Source of the DNA: Acidobacteriota bacterium
GTDB taxonomy: Bacteria; Acidobacteriota; Thermoanaerobaculia; Multivoradales; JAGPDF01
Direction: 5' to 3'
Length of the DNA: 35,734 nt
Assembly (NCBI GenBank): GCA_017860005.1
Contig: JAFNAE010000005.1
Location: 1 to 35,734, forward strand
Made by a program: the position numbers and the translations under genes
Shown: one piece after another, positions 25,722 to 34,103 of the stretch
How the letters are laid out: the number at the start of each line of letters is the position of its first letter
How positions within the stretch are numbered: the stretch's first letter is position 1
The notes under the pieces: model-generated
Told to the model about the DNA's origin: nothing
Database searches by the model: none
The model's input: the letters and a program-made list of their open reading frames with translations, nothing else

Positions 25722-26564
25722 GTGAGCCCTCCCCCGCACCTCGAGCGCTCCGACCTGGCGCGCCTGCTCGACCTCGTGGTGCGGCTGCGCGCCCCCGACG
25801 GCTGTCCCTGGGATCGCGAGCAGGCCCTGCCCGACCTGCGCGCCTACCTGCTCGAGGAGGCGCACGAAACCGCCGCCGCGATCGACCACGGCGACCTCGA
25901 CGCGCTCGCCGGCGAGCTCGGCGACCTGCTCTTCCAGGCCGCGTTCCTGGCCCGCCTGTCCGAGGAGTCGGGCGGCCCCGGGATCGGCGATGCGATCGAC
26001 CGCGCCGAGGCCAAGATGATCGCGCGCCATCCGCACGTCTTCGGCGGCGAGCGCCTCGAGGACGCGCGCGCGGTGCGCGAGGCCTGGGAGCGGCGCAAGC
26101 TGCGCGCCGAGGGCAACGGCCGTGGCTCGCTGCTGGACGGCGCGGCGGCCGCGACCCTGCCCGCGCTCGTAGCCGCCTACCGGCTCACGCAGAAGGCCGC
26201 CGGCGTCGGCTTCGACTGGCCGCAGGTGGACGCGGTCTTCGACAAGCTCGGCGAGGAGATCGGCGAGCTGCGCGCCGAGCTGGGCGCCGCGGCCGCCGCG
26301 AGCGACGAGGCGCATCGCGAGCGGCTGCGCGGCGAGGTCGGGGACCTCCTGTTCGCCGCGGCCAACCTCGCGCGCCACCTCGAGGTCGATCCGGAGGCCG
26401 CGCTCGCCGGCGCCAACCTGAAGTTCCGGCGCCGGTTCGCGGCGGTCGAGGCGGGCCTCGCGGCGCGCGGCCGCCGCCTCGAGGACGCCACGCTCGAAGA
26501 GATGGACGAGCTCTGGGAGGAGGCGAAGCGCGCCGAGCGCGTCACGCCGCCGGCTTCGCCCTGA
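25722..26564 (+). CDS. mazG: Nucleoside triphosphate pyrophosphohydrolase MazG
   Basis: A 280-residue all-helical NTP pyrophosphatase that removes abnormal (d)NTPs and can lower (p)ppGpp-related signals in some bacteria. The first MazG domain contains CPWDREQALPDLRAYLLEEAHE, split as CPWDREQ and YLLEEAHE, with the metal-binding ELGDLLFQAAF. The second has VGFDWPQVDAVFDKLGEE and GEVGDLLFAAANLAR. The tandem arrangement and length match E. coli MazG. The GTG start follows a TATGCT box by six bases. Its 3' end overlaps the convergent tesA-like gene by 23 bases. Confidence 0.95.
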   Translation: MSPPPHLERSDLARLLDLVVRLRAPDGCPWDREQALPDLRAYLLEEAHETAAAIDHGDLDALAGELGDLLFQAAFLARLSEESGGPGIGDAIDRAEAKMIARHPHVFGGERLEDARAVREAWERRKLRAEGNGRGSLLDGAAAATLPALVAAYRLTQKAAGVGFDWPQVDAVFDKLGEEIGELRAELGAAAAASDEAHRERLRGEVGDLLFAAANLARHLEVDPEAALAGANLKFRRRFAAVEAGLAARGRRLEDATLEEMDELWEEAKRAERVTPPASP

Positions 26565-27396
26565 GCTCCTCCAGCAAGGGCGCCAGCGCCTCGGCTACGG
26601 TGCCGGCCACGACCTCGTAGCCCCGGGCGTTGGGATGGATGCCGTCGGGCAGGTTGAGCTCCGGGCGAGCCGCGACGCCGTCGAGCAGGAACGGGATCAG
26701 CGTCGCCCCCGGCCGCCGCGCGACGCGCGGGTAGATGGCCTCGAAGCCCGCCGTGTACTCCGGTCCGTAGTTGGTGGGGATCTTCATGCCCGCCACCACC
26801 ACGCGCGCGCCCGCCGCGAGCGAGCGCTCGACGATCGCCGCCAGGTTCGCCTCGATCGCCTCGAGCGGCTGTCCGCGCAGGCCGTCGTTGGCACCCAGCT
26901 CGACCACCACCAGATCGGGCTCCTGGGCGAGCAGCCAGTCGAGCCGCTCCAGCCCGCCCGCGCTGGTGTCCCCGGAGATCCCGGCGTTGATGGCGCGGAT
27001 CCCGAGCCCGCGCCGCTCGAGCTCGGCCGCGACCCGCGCCGGGTAGCCCTGGTCCTCGTCGAGCCCGAACGCCGCGGTCAGGCTGTCGCCGAGGAAGACC
27101 ACCAGCGGCGGCTCGTCCGCGCCCAGGGGCGCGGCGGCGGGCGCGAGCCCGGAGCCTTCACTCGACGCAGAGCGAGAAGCTCCCATAGAAGGGAGGCTGC
27201 TGCCGGCCGGCGCGCTCGCGGCTCCATTCGACGTCGCAGTGGTCGCCTCTCTGGTAGTCGGCGGCGCAGTCGCCGGCTCGCGCGCGGCCACCGCGTCGTC
27301 GCCGGCGCGCGAGCAGCCCGCGGCGAGCAGCGCGAGCAGCGCACCCGCCGCCGCCGCCGCCCGAAGCGTCCCGGACTCGCCCCACTCGCCGCGCAC
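26542..27396 (-). CDS. tesA: TesA-like SGNH esterase/lysophospholipase, lipoprotein
   Basis: A 284-residue protein. The signal ends in LLAAGC, a lipobox, so it is probably an envelope lipoprotein. A low-complexity Ala/Ser/Thr linker (about 30-90) follows. The SGNH hydrolase domain has block I VFLGDSLTAAFG (nucleophile Ser), block II GISGDTSAGGLERL, block III ELGANDGLRG and block V DGIHPNARGY with the catalytic Asp and His. The sequence follows E. coli TesA closely, including NYGPEYTAGFEAIYP. E. coli TesA is a soluble periplasmic thioesterase I / lysophospholipase L1, so the lipid anchor and long linker differ. The GTG start has a TAAGAT box exactly seven bases ahead. It is divergent from ybbA-ybbP, as in E. 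coli. Confidence 0.92.
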   Translation of the reverse strand: MRGEWGESGTLRAAAAAGALLALLAAGCSRAGDDAVAAREPATAPPTTREATTATSNGAASAPAGSSLPSMGASRSASSEGSGLAPAAAPLGADEPPLVVFLGDSLTAAFGLDEDQGYPARVAAELERRGLGIRAINAGISGDTSAGGLERLDWLLAQEPDLVVVELGANDGLRGQPLEAIEANLAAIVERSLAAGARVVVAGMKIPTNYGPEYTAGFEAIYPRVARRPGATLIPFLLDGVAARPELNLPDGIHPNARGYEVVAGTVAEALAPLLEELRAKPAA

Positions 27397-27402
27397 GCGC
27401 CC

Positions 27403-27408
27403 ATCTTA
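27403..27408 (-). promoter_or_regulatory. Putative -10 box of tesA, leaderless start
   Basis: TAAGAT on the minus strand followed by GGGCGC and GTG. The predicted +1 is 27396, the first base of the start codon. It lies in the 146-base divergent region between tesA and ybbA. Confidence 0.5.
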
Positions 27409-27493
27409 GGCGAAGGCCCTTCGATGCGGACGCCACCGGCGACGAAAGGAATCCGCCGGCGTGGCGTAGAGGAGGAAGGAAGAGCGCGCGTGC

Positions 27494-27499
27494 TACGCT
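27494..27499 (+). promoter_or_regulatory. Possible -10 box of ybbA
   Basis: TACGCT with a predicted +1 near 27506, giving a leader of about 37 bases before the ATG at 27543. No clear ribosome site precedes that ATG. This is the best candidate in the tesA-ybbA divergent region, but it is weak. Confidence 0.3.
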
Positions 27500-27542
27500 G
27501 CGCCGGCCGCGCGGCGCCCGGCGCCGCGCCGCGATCCCCTCG

Positions 27543-28222
<680 letters not shown>

Positions 28223-28226
<4 letters not shown>

Positions 28227-30763
28227 ACGCGCGCGCCTTCGCGCGCCAACTCGCGCGCGAGTCGCGCGGGGCGCGCGGCCGGCTCGCCTTCTTCGCGCTC
28301 TGCCTGGGCGCGGGGGTGGCGGGGGTGGTCGCGGTGGCGGGCTTCTCCGCCGCGTTGCGCGAGGGGCTGGCGAGCGAGGCCCGGCGCCTGCTCGCCGGCG
28401 ACCTGCGCGTCGAAGGGCTCCGTCCCCTGCCCGAGCCGGCCGCCCGCGTGCTCGCCGCCGAGTCCGGCGCGCGCGTGGCGAGCGTGCGCGAGCTGGCGAC
28501 CGTGGTGGCCGCTCCGCCCACCTCGGCCGGAGCGGGCCGCAGCCGGCTGGTCGAGCTGCGTGCGGTGGAGGGCGACTTCCCCTTCTACGGCCGTCTGACG
28601 CTCGACCCCGAGCGTCCGCTCGCCGAGTTGCTCGCGGGCGACGGCGCGGTGGCGGCGCCCGAGCTGCTGTCCGGGCTCGGGCTCGCCGTGGGCGACTCGA
28701 TCTCGGTCGGAGGCCGGCCTTTCCGGCTGCGCGGCGTGGTCCGCGCGGAGCCCGACCGGCTGGGCAGCGCCTTCGCCCTGGGCCCCCGGCTCTATCTGTC
28801 CGGCGCGAGCCTCGACGCCACCGGGCTCGACCGCCTGGGCAGCCGCGTCGAGCACCGCACCCTGGTCGGCCTGCCCGGGGATGCGAGCGCCGCGCGCGCG
28901 CAGGAGCTGGCCGCCCGGGTCAAGGCCGCGCTCCCCGATCCCGACTTCCACCGCGTCGAGACCGCCGCCCAGGGCCAGCCCGAGCTGCGCCGCGGCGTCG
29001 ACCGGACCGAGCGGTTCCTCGGCCTCGCCGCGTTGCTCTCCCTGCTCGTCGGCGGCGTCGGAGTGGCGCAGACGGTGCGCGCCTGGCTCGCCTCGCGCCT
29101 GGAGGCGATCGCGGTCTGGAAGACGCTCGGGGCGCGTCCGGGCGAGATCGCCGCGCTCTACCTGACGCAGGTCGCCCTGCTCGCCGCGGCCGGTGCGACG
29201 GCGGGCGCGCTCGCCGGGCTCGCGCTCCAGCGCGCGCTGCCGCCGTTGCTCGCCGGCCTGCTCCCCGACCTGCCGCTGCCGGCCTTCCAGCCCGCGGCGC
29301 TGGCGCGCGGTCTCGCGCTCGGCCTCGGCGTCGCCCTGCTCTTCGCGACGCCACCGCTGGCCGCGGCGCTGCGCGTGCCTGCCGCGCGCGTGCTGCGCCG
29401 CGACGCCGAACCGCTGCCGCTGCCGCGCGCGGCGACCGCGGCGCTCGGCCTGGCGCTCGCCGCCGGCGTCGCCGCGGTGGCGGCGCTCCAGGCCGGCTCG
29501 CTCGCCTACGGCACCGCCTTCGCGGCCGGCCTCGCCGCCACCGCCGCCCTGCTCGCCGGCGCAGCGCGCGGCCTGATCGCGCTCGCCCGCCGCCTGCCCC
29601 GCCTGGGCCTGCCGGTGCCGTTGCGCTGGGGCGTCGCGGCTCTCGGCCGGCCGGGCGCGGGCACGCTCGCCCACGTCGTCGCGCTCGGCCTGGGCGCGCT
29701 GGTGCTGGTCGGCATGGCGACCGTCGAGCGCAACCTGGTACGCCGCCTCGACGCCGAGCTGCCCGCCGACGCGCCCACCGCCTTCCTGATCGACATCCAG
29801 CCCTCGCAGTGGGAGACGGTGCGCGCGGAGATCGAAGCGGCCGGCGCCACACGCACCGACTCGGTGCCGGTGGTGATGGCGCGTTTCGCCTCGATCGACG
29901 GTCGCTCCGTGCGCGAGCTGGCGGCCTCGGCCAGCCGCGAGGAGGGGCGGCGACGCTGGGCGCTCACCCGCGAGCAGCGGCTGACCTGGCTCGAGCGCCT
30001 AGCCGACGACAACCGCGTGGTGGCCGGAGCGCTGTGGAGCGACCCGGAGCGCTTCGAGGTCTCGGTCGAGGAGGAGTTCGCGCGCGACCTCGGGATCCGC
30101 GTCGGCTCGACGCTGGTCCTCGACGTGCAGGGCGTGCCGGTGGAGCTGGCGGTGACCAGCCTGCGCAGCGTGCGCTGGGAGACCTTCGGCATCAACTTCT
30201 TCCTGGTCGCCGAGCCGGGCGCGCTCGACCGCGCCCCGCAGATGCGCATCGCCGCCGTGCGCCTGCCGCCGGGCGGCGAGCAGCGTCTGCGCGACGCGCT
30301 CGCCGCGAGCCATCCCAACGTGACCCTGTTCGCGATCCGGGACGTGCTCGAGAAGGTGGTCGCGGTGCTCGAGCGCGTCGGGCTGGGCATCCGCTTCGTG
30401 GGCGGGTTCACGGTCGTGGCGGGCGCCGCGATCCTGGCCGGCGCGGTCGCGGCCGGGGCCGCCCGGCGCGCGCGCGAGGTGGCGATCGGCAAGGCGATCG
30501 GCATGACGCGCGCCCAGGTGGCGGCGCTGTTCGCCGCCGAGTACGGGCTGGCGGGCGGCGCCGGCGGGCTGATCGGCGCCGTCGCCGGCACCGTGCTCGC
30601 CGCGGCCGTGCTCGAACGCGGCTTCGAGATCGACTGGCGGTTCGAACCCGCGCTGCTCGCCGCCGCCGCGGCGGCGACCGCGCTGCTCGCGATCCTCGCC
30701 GGGCTCGCCGCCTCGCTGCGCCCGCTCGCCGAGCGCCCGATCGAGGCGCTGCGCCACGAGTAG
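28223..30763 (+). CDS. ybbP: ABC transporter permease, YbbP family (two FtsX domains)
   Basis: An 846-residue inner-membrane protein with about ten helices. After an N-terminal helix (about 20-42) comes a periplasmic domain (about 45-265). A first FtsX-type helix bundle follows (about 270-400, with VWKTLGARPGEIAALYLTQV), then a middle helix group (about 410-510), a second periplasmic domain (about 520-705) and a last FtsX bundle (about 715-846, with AIGKAIGMTRAQVAALFAAEY). The duplicated layout is the YbbP signature. It works with the preceding ATPase. The start codon is GTG. The gene ends with GAG TAG and shares a hairpin with the convergent yibQ stop. Confidence 0.9.
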
Positions 30764-30773
30764 CGGCTACTCG
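30757..30773. terminator. Perfect hairpin spanning two convergent stop codons
   Basis: CGAGTAG-CGG-CTACTCG gives a 7-base-pair stem with a 3-base loop. The left arm contains the ybbP stop and the right arm the yibQ stop, because both genes end in GAG TAG. It may act as a bidirectional terminator or mRNA end barrier, but it lacks a T tract and partly follows from the shared final codons. Confidence 0.35.
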
Positions 30774-31696
30774 GGCAGCGTCTCGGAGCGCTCGAGCAGG
30801 AAGGAGACGGGGACGAACTCGATCCCCGCCGCGCGCGCGCGCGGCAGCTCGCGCTCGAGCACCGCCAGCGTCGCCGCGCGCGGATGTCCGATGGCGATCG
30901 CCGCCCCCCGTTCACGCGCCACCGCGAGCAGGCGCTCGAGCTGCGCGGCGACCGCGCCGCTGGCCGGATCGTCGTCGAGGAAGACGTCGCGTCGCGCGGC
31001 CGGGATGCCGCGCGCGCGCGCCCACTCGAAGGCCTTGGTCTCGGCGGTGGTGCGCGAGTCGAGGAAGAAGAGCCGGCGCGCGGCGACGACGTCGAGCACG
31101 GCGCCCATGGCGTCGGGATCGGCGGTGATCTCCGAACCCATGTGGTTGTTGAGGCCGGTGGCGCCGGCCACCGCCTGCACCGCCTTCTCGGTCAGCGCGC
31201 CGACGCGCCGGGGGCGCTGGCGCTCGAGGATGGCGTTCGGGCCCGGATCCTCGCCGCCCTCGGGCTCCATGGGCAGGTGCACCAGGATCTCGGCGCCCGC
31301 CGCGCCCAGGCGTGCCGCCACCTCGGCGCTGCGCGGCTCGAACGGCAGCACCGCATAGGAAAAGGGGACGCCCAGAGCGAGCAGGCGGTCCACCTCCTCG
31401 ACGCTGCGGCCGAGATCGTCGATCACGATCGCGACGCGCGCCTCCGCGGTCCGGCCCGGCGGTTCGGCGACCCGGGTCGGCGCCTCCGCCGCGGCCGCCG
31501 GCGCCCGGCGCGGTCCGGAAGGACGAGCGGACGGTTCCCGCGCCGGGCGCGAATCGCCCGCGCGCCAGCGCGCGACGAGCTCGCGCCCGCCGCCGCGTCC
31601 GAGCCAGATGCCGAGCGCGAAGACGCCCGCGAGTGCGGCGAGCAGGGCGACGAGGCGGAGCGGAGCGCGGCCGGAGCCGCGGCGTCGGCGGGCCAT
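30767..31696 (-). CDS. yibQ: Divergent polysaccharide deacetylase, YibQ family
   Basis: A 309-residue protein with one N-terminal membrane helix (about 13-32) and a low-complexity Pro/Ala/Arg linker (about 40-85). The divergent polysaccharide deacetylase domain (PF04748) has IVIDDLGRSVEEVDRLL, ILVHLPMEPEG, NNHMGSEIT, FFLDSRTTAE, RRDVFLDDD and AIAIGHPR. The NodB-like metal and catalytic residues (Asp-Asp, His, NNH) are all kept. It is thought to act on periplasmic peptidoglycan or other glycans; the substrate is not known. It is the last gene of the envC operon, 15 bases after the CtpA-like gene, as in many proteobacteria. Confidence 0.92.
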   Translation of the reverse strand: MARRRRGSGRAPLRLVALLAALAGVFALGIWLGRGGGRELVARWRAGDSRPAREPSARPSGPRRAPAAAAEAPTRVAEPPGRTAEARVAIVIDDLGRSVEEVDRLLALGVPFSYAVLPFEPRSAEVAARLGAAGAEILVHLPMEPEGGEDPGPNAILERQRPRRVGALTEKAVQAVAGATGLNNHMGSEITADPDAMGAVLDVVAARRLFFLDSRTTAETKAFEWARARGIPAARRDVFLDDDPASGAVAAQLERLLAVARERGAAIAIGHPRAATLAVLERELPRARAAGIEFVPVSFLLERSETLPE

Positions 31697-31711: not shown

Positions 31712-32893
31712 TCAGGCCGCCTGGCGCGCCGTCGCGTCCGCGCCGGAGAGGACTTCGATTCCGCGTTCGAGGATGAGGTCGCCGAGCGGCTTGTCGCGCT
31801 CGCCGAAGCTGCGCTGGAGGTCGTCGACGAGCACCTCGGGCGCCAGCCCCTTGGACATCGGCGTGCCGTCCGGTCCGCAGTAGAAGGACGTGGTGAGCAG
31901 CAGCGCGGCGCCGTCGGAGAGCTCGATCATCTCGCGCTCGCCTGCCCAGCCGAAGGTCCGCGCACCGACCAGACGCGCGCCGGCGCGGTCGCGCAGGACG
32001 GCGGCGACCAGCTCGGCGGGACCCTGGGTGCCGGCGTCCACCAGCACCACGATCTCGCCCTTCCAGAGCGGCGAAGCGCCCGCGAACTCGCGCAACGTCG
32101 CGCCCCGCGCCACGCGCCGCCCCAGGTGGCCGTCGGCCAGCAGCGACGCCACCTCGTAGGCCGCCACCGGCGCGCCGCCCGCGACGCCGCGCAGGTCCAG
32201 CAGCAGTTTCGCCGCTCCCGCCGCCGCGAGCTGCTCGAGCAGCGGGCGCACCTCGGCGGCGGCGCCGCCGCCGATCGAGGGCAGGCGCAGCAGCGGCAGG
32301 CCGCCCGCCTCGGAGAGCACGGCCCTGGGCGGCGCGTAGTCGGCGAGCACGAGCTCGAGGTCGTGCGCCTCGCCGCGGCGCAGGACCTCGACTGCGAGCG
32401 TGTCGCCGGGTTGTCCCGCCAGCAGGCGCTCCAGCCGCCAGTGCGGCAGCTCCCGGGTCGAGACCCCGCCCACCTCGGCCACCAGGTCGCCGGCCGTGAA
32501 GCCGGCGGTCGCCGCGGGGCTGCCGTCCTCGACCGCCAGCACGTAGACGATGCCGTGATCGTGGCCGAGCGAGATGCCGGAGCGCGAACGGCCGACCTCG
32601 ATCACGCGCGCGAACTCCGCACGCGCCGCGCGCGGCACGAAGACCGAGAACGGGTCGAGCGCGTCGGTCGCCCCGTCGAGCGCGCCCGCCAGCAGCTTCT
32701 CGGCCTCGGTCGCGTCGACGTAATCGTTGCGCACCAGGCCGAGGACCTCGGAGAACATGGTCAGGTACTTGTAGAGCGAGTCGCCGCCGTCGTCGGCGCG
32801 ACGCTCGACCGCCGCGCTCCACAGCACGCCGGCGACGAGCGGCACGGTGAGCGCGAGCGAGACGGCGAGGAAGAGGACGCGGGCCCGGTTCAT
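31712..32893 (-). CDS. CtpA-like S41 family protein, predicted catalytically inactive
   Basis: A 393-residue protein with an N-terminal membrane anchor (about 6-24), a helical region with YLTMFSEVLGLVRNDYVD, a PDZ domain (about 95-185, with GISLGHDHGIVYVLAVEDGSPA) and an S41 protease core. In CtpA proteases the catalytic serine is in GTASASE and the lysine follows 25 residues later in TFGKG. Here these read GTQGPAE with Gly291 and TFGWAG with Trp316, at exactly the same spacing, so both dyad residues are lost while the fold motifs remain. It should bind but not cut. It lies between the EnvC-like gene (34-base gap) and yibQ (15-base gap). An upstream in-frame start to 32995 is possible, but the ATG at 32893 gives the anchor. 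Confidence 0.88.
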   Translation of the reverse strand: MNRARVLFLAVSLALTVPLVAGVLWSAAVERRADDGGDSLYKYLTMFSEVLGLVRNDYVDATEAEKLLAGALDGATDALDPFSVFVPRAARAEFARVIEVGRSRSGISLGHDHGIVYVLAVEDGSPAATAGFTAGDLVAEVGGVSTRELPHWRLERLLAGQPGDTLAVEVLRRGEAHDLELVLADYAPPRAVLSEAGGLPLLRLPSIGGGAAAEVRPLLEQLAAAGAAKLLLDLRGVAGGAPVAAYEVASLLADGHLGRRVARGATLREFAGASPLWKGEIVVLVDAGTQGPAELVAAVLRDRAGARLVGARTFGWAGEREMIELSDGAALLLTTSFYCGPDGTPMSKGLAPEVLVDDLQRSFGERDKPLGDLILERGIEVLSGADATARQAA

Positions 32894-32927: not shown

Positions 32928-34103
32928 TCAGCGCGCCCACTGGCGCGGGTCCTCGGGACGATTGTCGACGCGAATCTCGAAGTAGAGCGACGCACCCGCG
33001 CGCCCCAGCTCCGAGCCCAACGATAGCAGATCGCCGCGTCGCACCCCGAGGCTCTCGAGGCCCGCGTAGAGAGTGAACGCGCGTCCGGCGTGCTGCACCA
33101 CCGCGGTCGGCCCGTAGCCCTCGAACGGCGCCGCGAAGACCACCTTGCCCGGGTAGACGACGCGCACCGGCTCGCCCGGCACGGTCGCCAGGTCGACGCC
33201 GTGGTGGGGCACGCGCGTGCCGTAGCGCGGATCGAGGCGCGGACCGAACTCCACGGTCACCCGCCCGCGCGCCGGCCACGCCAGCAGACCTCGAAACTCC
33301 TGGATCGGGCGCCCGCTGAGCGCCTCCGCGTCGCGCCCGTAGAGGGCGTCGAGCAGCGCCGAGAGGCGCTCGGCGCGCGCGGCGAGCTCCGCCGCGCGCA
33401 CCGCGAGCCGCTCCGATTCGGAGCGCGCGCCCGCCAGCAGCTCCGTCTGTCGCGACTCGAGCCGGGCGAGCTCGTCGCGGCGCGCCGCCTGCTCGGCGAG
33501 CCAGGCCGCCGACACGGCGCGATCCTGGTCGAGGCTCGCCCGCTCGGCGTCGAGGCGGGCGCGCAGGTCCTCGAAGCGCGACACCGAGGCGGCGTCGCGG
33601 CGCGCGAGGTAGCGCAGCAGACGGATCGCCGCGACCGGCTCCTCGCCGGGCTCGAGCGAGAAGGCGAGACGCGCGATGCCGTGGCGCCCCAGCCGGTAGA
33701 GGCCGCCCACGCGCGCCTCGAGCCGGCGCCTTTCGCGCTCCAGGCGTTCCTCGAGCTCGGCCACGCGCGCCTCGGCTTCCGTCACCCGCGCCCGGGCGAG
33801 GTCGTGTTCGGCGCGCGCCTCGGCGACGCGACGCTGCTGGAGGTCGAGCTCGAGCCGGGAGCGCTCGATGTCCCCTTCGAGGCCCGCGGCGCGCGCCCGC
33901 ACCTGCCCGACGCGCACGGTGAGCGAGGCGATCTCGCCCCGGATGCGCTCGAGCTCCTCGGCGCGCTCGGCCGCCTCCGCGCCCGCCGCGAGCGCGACCG
34001 GCGCGCCGTCCTCCTGCCCGGAGATCGCGCCGGCGAGCGCGAACGCCACGACGACGGCGATCCGGAGAGCCCGTGCGACGCGCCTTCCGGGCCTTTCTCG
34101 CAG
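32928..34103 (-). CDS. envC: EnvC-like murein hydrolase activator (degenerate LytM/M23)
   Basis: A 391-residue exported protein. Residues 1-30 are a signal peptide (basic RERPGRRVARALR, then IAVVVAFALAGAI), a long coiled coil spans about 40-260, and the C-terminal LytM domain covers about 285-391. The LytM fold keeps HHGVD (His300 and Asp304) but the final HxH reads Ser372-Leu-Tyr374 in ASLYFEIR, as in E. coli EnvC (SLYFEIR). It should therefore activate amidases rather than cut. Start: the only codon that gives a full signal peptide is CTG at 34103, with AAGGAG eight bases upstream; the GTG at 34049 would remove most of the signal. FtsEX, the usual EnvC partner, is not in the window. Confidence 0.87.
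   Translation of the reverse strand: MRERPGRRVARALRIAVVVAFALAGAISGQEDGAPVALAAGAEAAERAEELERIRGEIASLTVRVGQVRARAAGLEGDIERSRLELDLQQRRVAEARAEHDLARARVTEAEARVAELEERLERERRRLEARVGGLYRLGRHGIARLAFSLEPGEEPVAAIRLLRYLARRDAASVSRFEDLRARLDAERASLDQDRAVSAAWLAEQAARRDELARLESRQTELLAGARSESERLAVRAAELAARAERLSALLDALYGRDAEALSGRPIQEFRGLLAWPARGRVTVEFGPRLDPRYGTRVPHHGVDLATVPGEPVRVVYPGKVVFAAPFEGYGPTAVVQHAGRAFTLYAGLESLGVRRGDLLSLGSELGRAGASLYFEIRVDNRPEDPRQWAR

Follow-up and report, generated by a model that had tools for sequence, protein, structure and literature searches.

What could a CtpA-type protein do in the cell envelope if it has no protease active site? This question is raised by an S41 gene in the window analysed here (the whole stretch of 35,734 nucleotides from an Acidobacteriota genome), which lies between genes for an EnvC-like and a YibQ-like protein (Table 1). 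In P. aeruginosa, the CtpA of the envC-ctpA-PA5135 operon is active and breaks down wall hydrolases (PMC12569750), and YibQ has been reported to be SddA, a denuded-strand peptidoglycan deacetylase tied to EnvC (PMC12440217); in E. coli, ctpA is absent between envC and yibQ (PMC12440217, PMC12569750). The window has the envC-ctpA-sddA order, with envC, the S41 gene and the divergent polysaccharide deacetylase gene co-directional and separated by gaps of 34 and 15 bp. Scans of this operon for promoters and terminators found nothing.

Table 1. Positions in the window of the pseudo-CtpA gene, its parts and its two neighbours.
Feature	Position	Strand	Remarks
Pseudo-CtpA: N-terminal anchor, N-terminal helical region, PDZ domain, S41 fold without Ser/Lys	31712..32893	-	393 aa
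N-terminal hydrophobic helix (roughly residues 3-24) that probably anchors the protein in the membrane	32822..32887	-	Sequence, and model helix 3-33
PDZ domain, residues 106-181	32351..32578	-	Pfam PDZ_2, E 3.9e-10
S41 domain, residues 202-355	31829..32290	-	Pfam Peptidase_S41, E 1.1e-21
Gly291 codon (GGT), replaces nucleophile Ser302 of P. aeruginosa CtpA	32021..32023	-	
Trp316 codon (TGG), replaces general base Lys327 of P. aeruginosa CtpA	31946..31948	-	
Arg320 codon, replaces Gln331 of P. aeruginosa CtpA	31934..31936	-	
Phe82 codon, replaces His84 of P. aeruginosa CtpA	32648..32650	-	
EnvC-like protein, a degenerate LytM/M23 member with a coiled coil; SLYFE stands at the last HxH motif	32928..34049	-	Pfam EnvC-type M23; upstream
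YibQ/SddA-type divergent polysaccharide deacetylase	30767..31696	-	Polysacc_deac_2, E 7.8e-72; 15 bp past the pseudo-CtpA stop

The reading frame is intact, and its translation is a CtpA-type protein with PDZ and S41 domains. An earlier note, made from the sequence alone, had claimed that both catalytic residues are replaced at the spacing of active CtpA, while the S41 core, the PDZ domain and the membrane anchor are kept. Both parts of this claim hold. Gly291 is part of GTQGPAE and Trp316, 25 residues on, of TFGWAGE; when the protein is aligned pairwise with P. aeruginosa CtpA (7rpq, the best PDB sequence match, E 1.8e-29), they fall opposite Ser302 and Lys327, with Arg320 and Phe82 opposite Gln331 and His84; the retained parts are recognised by the Pfam models and by a predicted N-terminal helix (residues 3-33). 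The protein thus has the S41 fold and PDZ domain of the CtpA class (Pfam, structural model and PDB matches), but not the Ser-Lys dyad of S41A CtpA, and scores 97.1 bits against the NCBIfam model for C-terminal processing peptidases (TIGR00225), under the cut-off of 218.6 bits. In P. aeruginosa CtpA, S302A or K327A abolishes activity in vivo, whereas H84A and Q331A merely reduce it (PMC11021448), and H. pylori CtpA S300A is also inactive (PMC12749690). As either of the first two substitutions is enough to kill the P. aeruginosa enzyme, we firmly infer from the residues present that the window protein, which has lost the dyad and the supporting residues, has no S41 chemistry. It therefore shares operon order, domain layout and fold with P. 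aeruginosa CtpA (PA5134, S41A; PMC12569750), but proteolysis is not to be expected of it.

Loss of the catalytic residues has not been followed by decay of the protein. An AlphaFold2 model (117 sequences; pLDDT 93, pTM 0.86) has the complete CtpA fold. Its top fold match is H. pylori CtpA (9jr1_A; Z 32.7, rmsd 4.3, 342 residues aligned), equalled by P. aeruginosa CtpA (8sxh_B; Z 32.5, rmsd 4.3, 343 aligned); the H. pylori enzyme, unlike the window protein, has its catalytic residues, Ser300-Lys325-Gln329. Among 86 closely related pairs, which are non-independent and include a few from family f10 (see below), dN/dS had a median of 0.29 and a maximum of 0.48 (NG86), indicating purifying selection. 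D233, R235, E294, G310 and G315 are invariant across the pseudo-CtpA family, and Gly291 is nearly so. A homologous fold under selection, from which the catalytic residues are absent, is what defines an S41-type pseudoprotease, and pseudo-CtpA fits that definition.

At strict thresholds, 54 of 59 genomes from the order (in Thermoanaerobaculia, probably Ca. Multivoradales) had a match, as did 143 of 149 from the class and 311 of 396 from the phylum; the last two counts also take in canonical CtpA matches. Catalytic states were then read at the aligned positions, within Acidobacteriota. Had the pair Gly/Trp been fixed, as the earlier note asked, both residues would recur in relatives; the glycine does (in all 52 sequences aligned from the order), but the tryptophan does not, its site being occupied by H (20), Y (16), W (9), L (4) or F (3) and never by Lys. 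The spacing of 25 is found in all order members whose match spans both sites. Other families of the class have G/M, G/A, G/Y, G/D, R/D, Q/D, G/H or A/R at the Ser and Lys sites, and two more, f10 and f11, have S/K, A/K, G/K, S/R or G/R. In other classes the Ser site is mostly G, but also N, H, Q, K, W or S, and the Lys site is never Lys. Catalytic residues are thus lost across the Acidobacteriota members of the family, save for eight f10 sequences with Ser and Lys. The observation that the earlier note named as refuting its claim, Ser and Lys kept in close relatives, was not made. That the window gene might reflect a recent local loss or a sequencing error has nothing in its favour and a probability close to nil, because glycine with a non-Lys residue recurs at every level from genus and family through order and class to phylum, in assemblies that are independent of one another. 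The pseudoprotease suspected between EnvC and YibQ is in fact conserved through the order, in nearly all of the class and in dozens of families of the phylum. Two variants were seen in passing. Four f18 loci (L098-L100 and L114) have an insert of tens of residues in the S41 domain, between the Ser and Lys positions. The genome of the window also has a second pseudo-S41 gene (L064, contig C185, 2919-4466, minus strand), with G/L/P at the three sites, which groups with L226 of another class and forms a separate old subfamily.

Canonical CtpA paralogues of Acidobacteriota have the same PDZ and S41 domains and occur in the same genomes: the host genome encodes one with Ser and Lys elsewhere (L001, of the TWGKG type), and nearly all genomes of the class have a second CtpA-type match. 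These paralogues keep Ser, Lys, Gln and His, all four of which are replaced in the window protein. In a tree from which the catalytic stretch had been removed, the pseudo-CtpA family (support 100/99) and the canonical Ser/Lys proteins (100/99) form separate clades, and the class and f10+f11 are also supported at 100/99. In a FastTree of 189 sequences, a single branch parts 43 canonical proteins, all with Ser and Lys, from 146 members of the pseudo-CtpA family, of which only the eight of f10 have both residues; such counts are not frequencies, because the phylum loci were picked by their score to profiles of the family. The best reading is that the family is ancient and vertically inherited.

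The f10 exceptions (L093, L094, L161, L162, L163 and L166-L168) are operon copies with Ser, Lys and Gln, and with Phe at the His84 site; they are nested inside the pseudo-CtpA clade, and f10 and f11 together present graded states (G/K, G/R, A/K, S/R and S/K). Did they regain the dyad or never lose it? An ancestral dyad in f10 with one loss elsewhere predicts that the rest of the family is a single clade, a constraint that is rejected (p-AU 0.012; 54 sequences, LG+G4). A two-state model with gains of Lys also beats a loss-only model (2dlnL 8.8), which needs five separate Lys losses on that tree. It is possible that f10 retained an active dyad while several parallel losses took place elsewhere, f10 being the last survivor of the active state, and the Ser codons of f10, which are TCN as in most canonical CtpA genes, lean towards retention. 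As the deep backbone of the tree is poorly resolved, regain of the Ser-Lys dyad inside a lineage dead throughout the phylum is put forward only tentatively, as a somewhat unlikely event. Local gene conversion from canonical ctpA was considered as the source of the f10 residues and judged unlikely, because the f10 motifs (STASGAE, TYGKSIVQ) differ from those of the canonical paralogue (GTASASE, TWGKGLVQ).

The gene neighbourhoods point to the cell wall. The trio of envC, pseudo-CtpA gene and yibQ is kept in most sampled members of the class, and beyond it envC adjoins the pseudo-CtpA gene, on the upstream side, in about ten sampled loci from several other classes. In seven loci of other acidobacterial families (L132, L133, L137, L140, L141, L143 and L147), mltG/yceG lies near the gene, mostly divergently, and in L138 a class A PBP gene is downstream. 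These associations are all peptidoglycan-related; in L129, L136, L144, L145 and L160, the scanned neighbour is unrelated to peptidoglycan. Partnership with EnvC and YibQ is not obligatory, because genus g6, which belongs to the same order and includes Ca. Multivorans, keeps the gene away from both. NCBI assigns Ca. Multivorans to Ca. Multivoradales within the Thermoanaerobaculia, and by its kinship to g6 the genome of the window probably belongs there too. In two g6 loci (L122 and L242) it follows genes for dCTP-deaminase-like, HATPase (anti-sigma-like) and STAS proteins, a setting that suggests regulatory re-wiring.

That a dead protease is kept beside cell division genes suggests that it holds or regulates partners instead of cutting them. 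The role of scaffold or regulator of cell wall enzymes, proposed in the earlier note, is plausible in that it fits these neighbourhoods. Our preferred reading, to which we give a probability of roughly 0.6, is that pseudo-CtpA binds envelope proteins without cleaving them and so helps to control septal peptidoglycan enzymes, the partners and the regulatory effect being deduced from genes and fold. Most likely, the PDZ domain and the tunnel would still bind envelope proteins by their C-termini or by unfolded tails, leaving them uncut, and septal peptidoglycan enzymes or their activators bound in this way might be held, sequestered or positioned. Candidate partners are EnvC, the amidases that it activates (the genome has three Amidase_3 genes) and SddA; in other lineages, MltG or a PBP could take their place. 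The canonical Ser/Lys paralogue encoded elsewhere would do the cutting. Besides the g6 loci, position 316 counts against this reading: although it takes only H, Y, W, L or F in the order, it ranks in the top 7% of the core for variability within the family, and because it varies so widely outside the order, no specific new pocket chemistry is evident.

Pseudoproteases in other systems tune active proteases. Pseudo-CtpA could likewise be an inactive partner subunit of canonical CtpA, forming hetero-oligomers with it or competing for an LbcA-like adaptor. The genomic coexistence of both types described above, and the N- and C-terminal helical regions kept in the structural model, are consistent with this, as is the architecture of CtpA itself, a trimer of dimers activated by LbcA (PMC8764530). 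Genome G017 even has another pseudo copy, its second (L046), beside a Ser/Lys CtpA-type reading frame on the opposite strand. However, pseudo and canonical genes are not co-localised in the other loci read, and the two families are deeply split in the tree, which makes a partner subunit unlikely.

Two further roles would give the fold a chemistry or a ligand of its own. An enzyme whose catalytic residues have moved or been exchanged for others could account for the retained fold and for the constraint, within the order, on Gly291 and on an aromatic residue or Leu at position 316. Across the family, however, no alternative Ser, Thr, Cys or His is invariant, and the invariant D233, R235, E294 and glycines are the same structural residues as in canonical CtpA; we regard such an enzyme as very unlikely. 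One might also think of vertebrate IRBP/RBP3, an S41 homologue whose modules, like pseudo-CtpA, have the fold minus the catalytic residues, and which carries retinoids and fatty acids (PMC11750400). It appears among the fold matches at Z 14-17, and the aromatic residues favoured at position 316 in the order could suit a small hydrophobic ligand or lipid. IRBP/RBP3 is a weaker match than the bacterial CtpAs, however, and a ligand transporter without a PDZ domain; pseudo-CtpA keeps that domain and its gene sits with peptidoglycan genes, so that ligand binding of this kind is highly improbable.

Pseudoproteases, including one example with the S41 fold (IRBP/RBP3, PMC11750400), were already known. 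We found no description of bacterial or acidobacterial S41/CtpA pseudoproteases in the open-access literature. Members of the pseudo-CtpA family are easily read as proteases because they match Pfam S41, and the NCBIfam protease models below cut-off; most of them cannot be S41 proteases despite such matches. A dead copy where P. aeruginosa has a CtpA that degrades wall hydrolases suggests a conserved job for the PDZ and cage part alone near EnvC and SddA, and pseudo-CtpA offers a direct test of a non-proteolytic role of CtpA in cell division. Families f10 and f11 provide a natural series in which to ask whether a protease, once lost, can be restored. Elsewhere in the window (26542-30763), a GDSL lipase gene (tesA-like) is divergent from genes for an ABC ATPase and an FtsX/MacB-type permease, which is the ybbA-ybbP-tesA arrangement.
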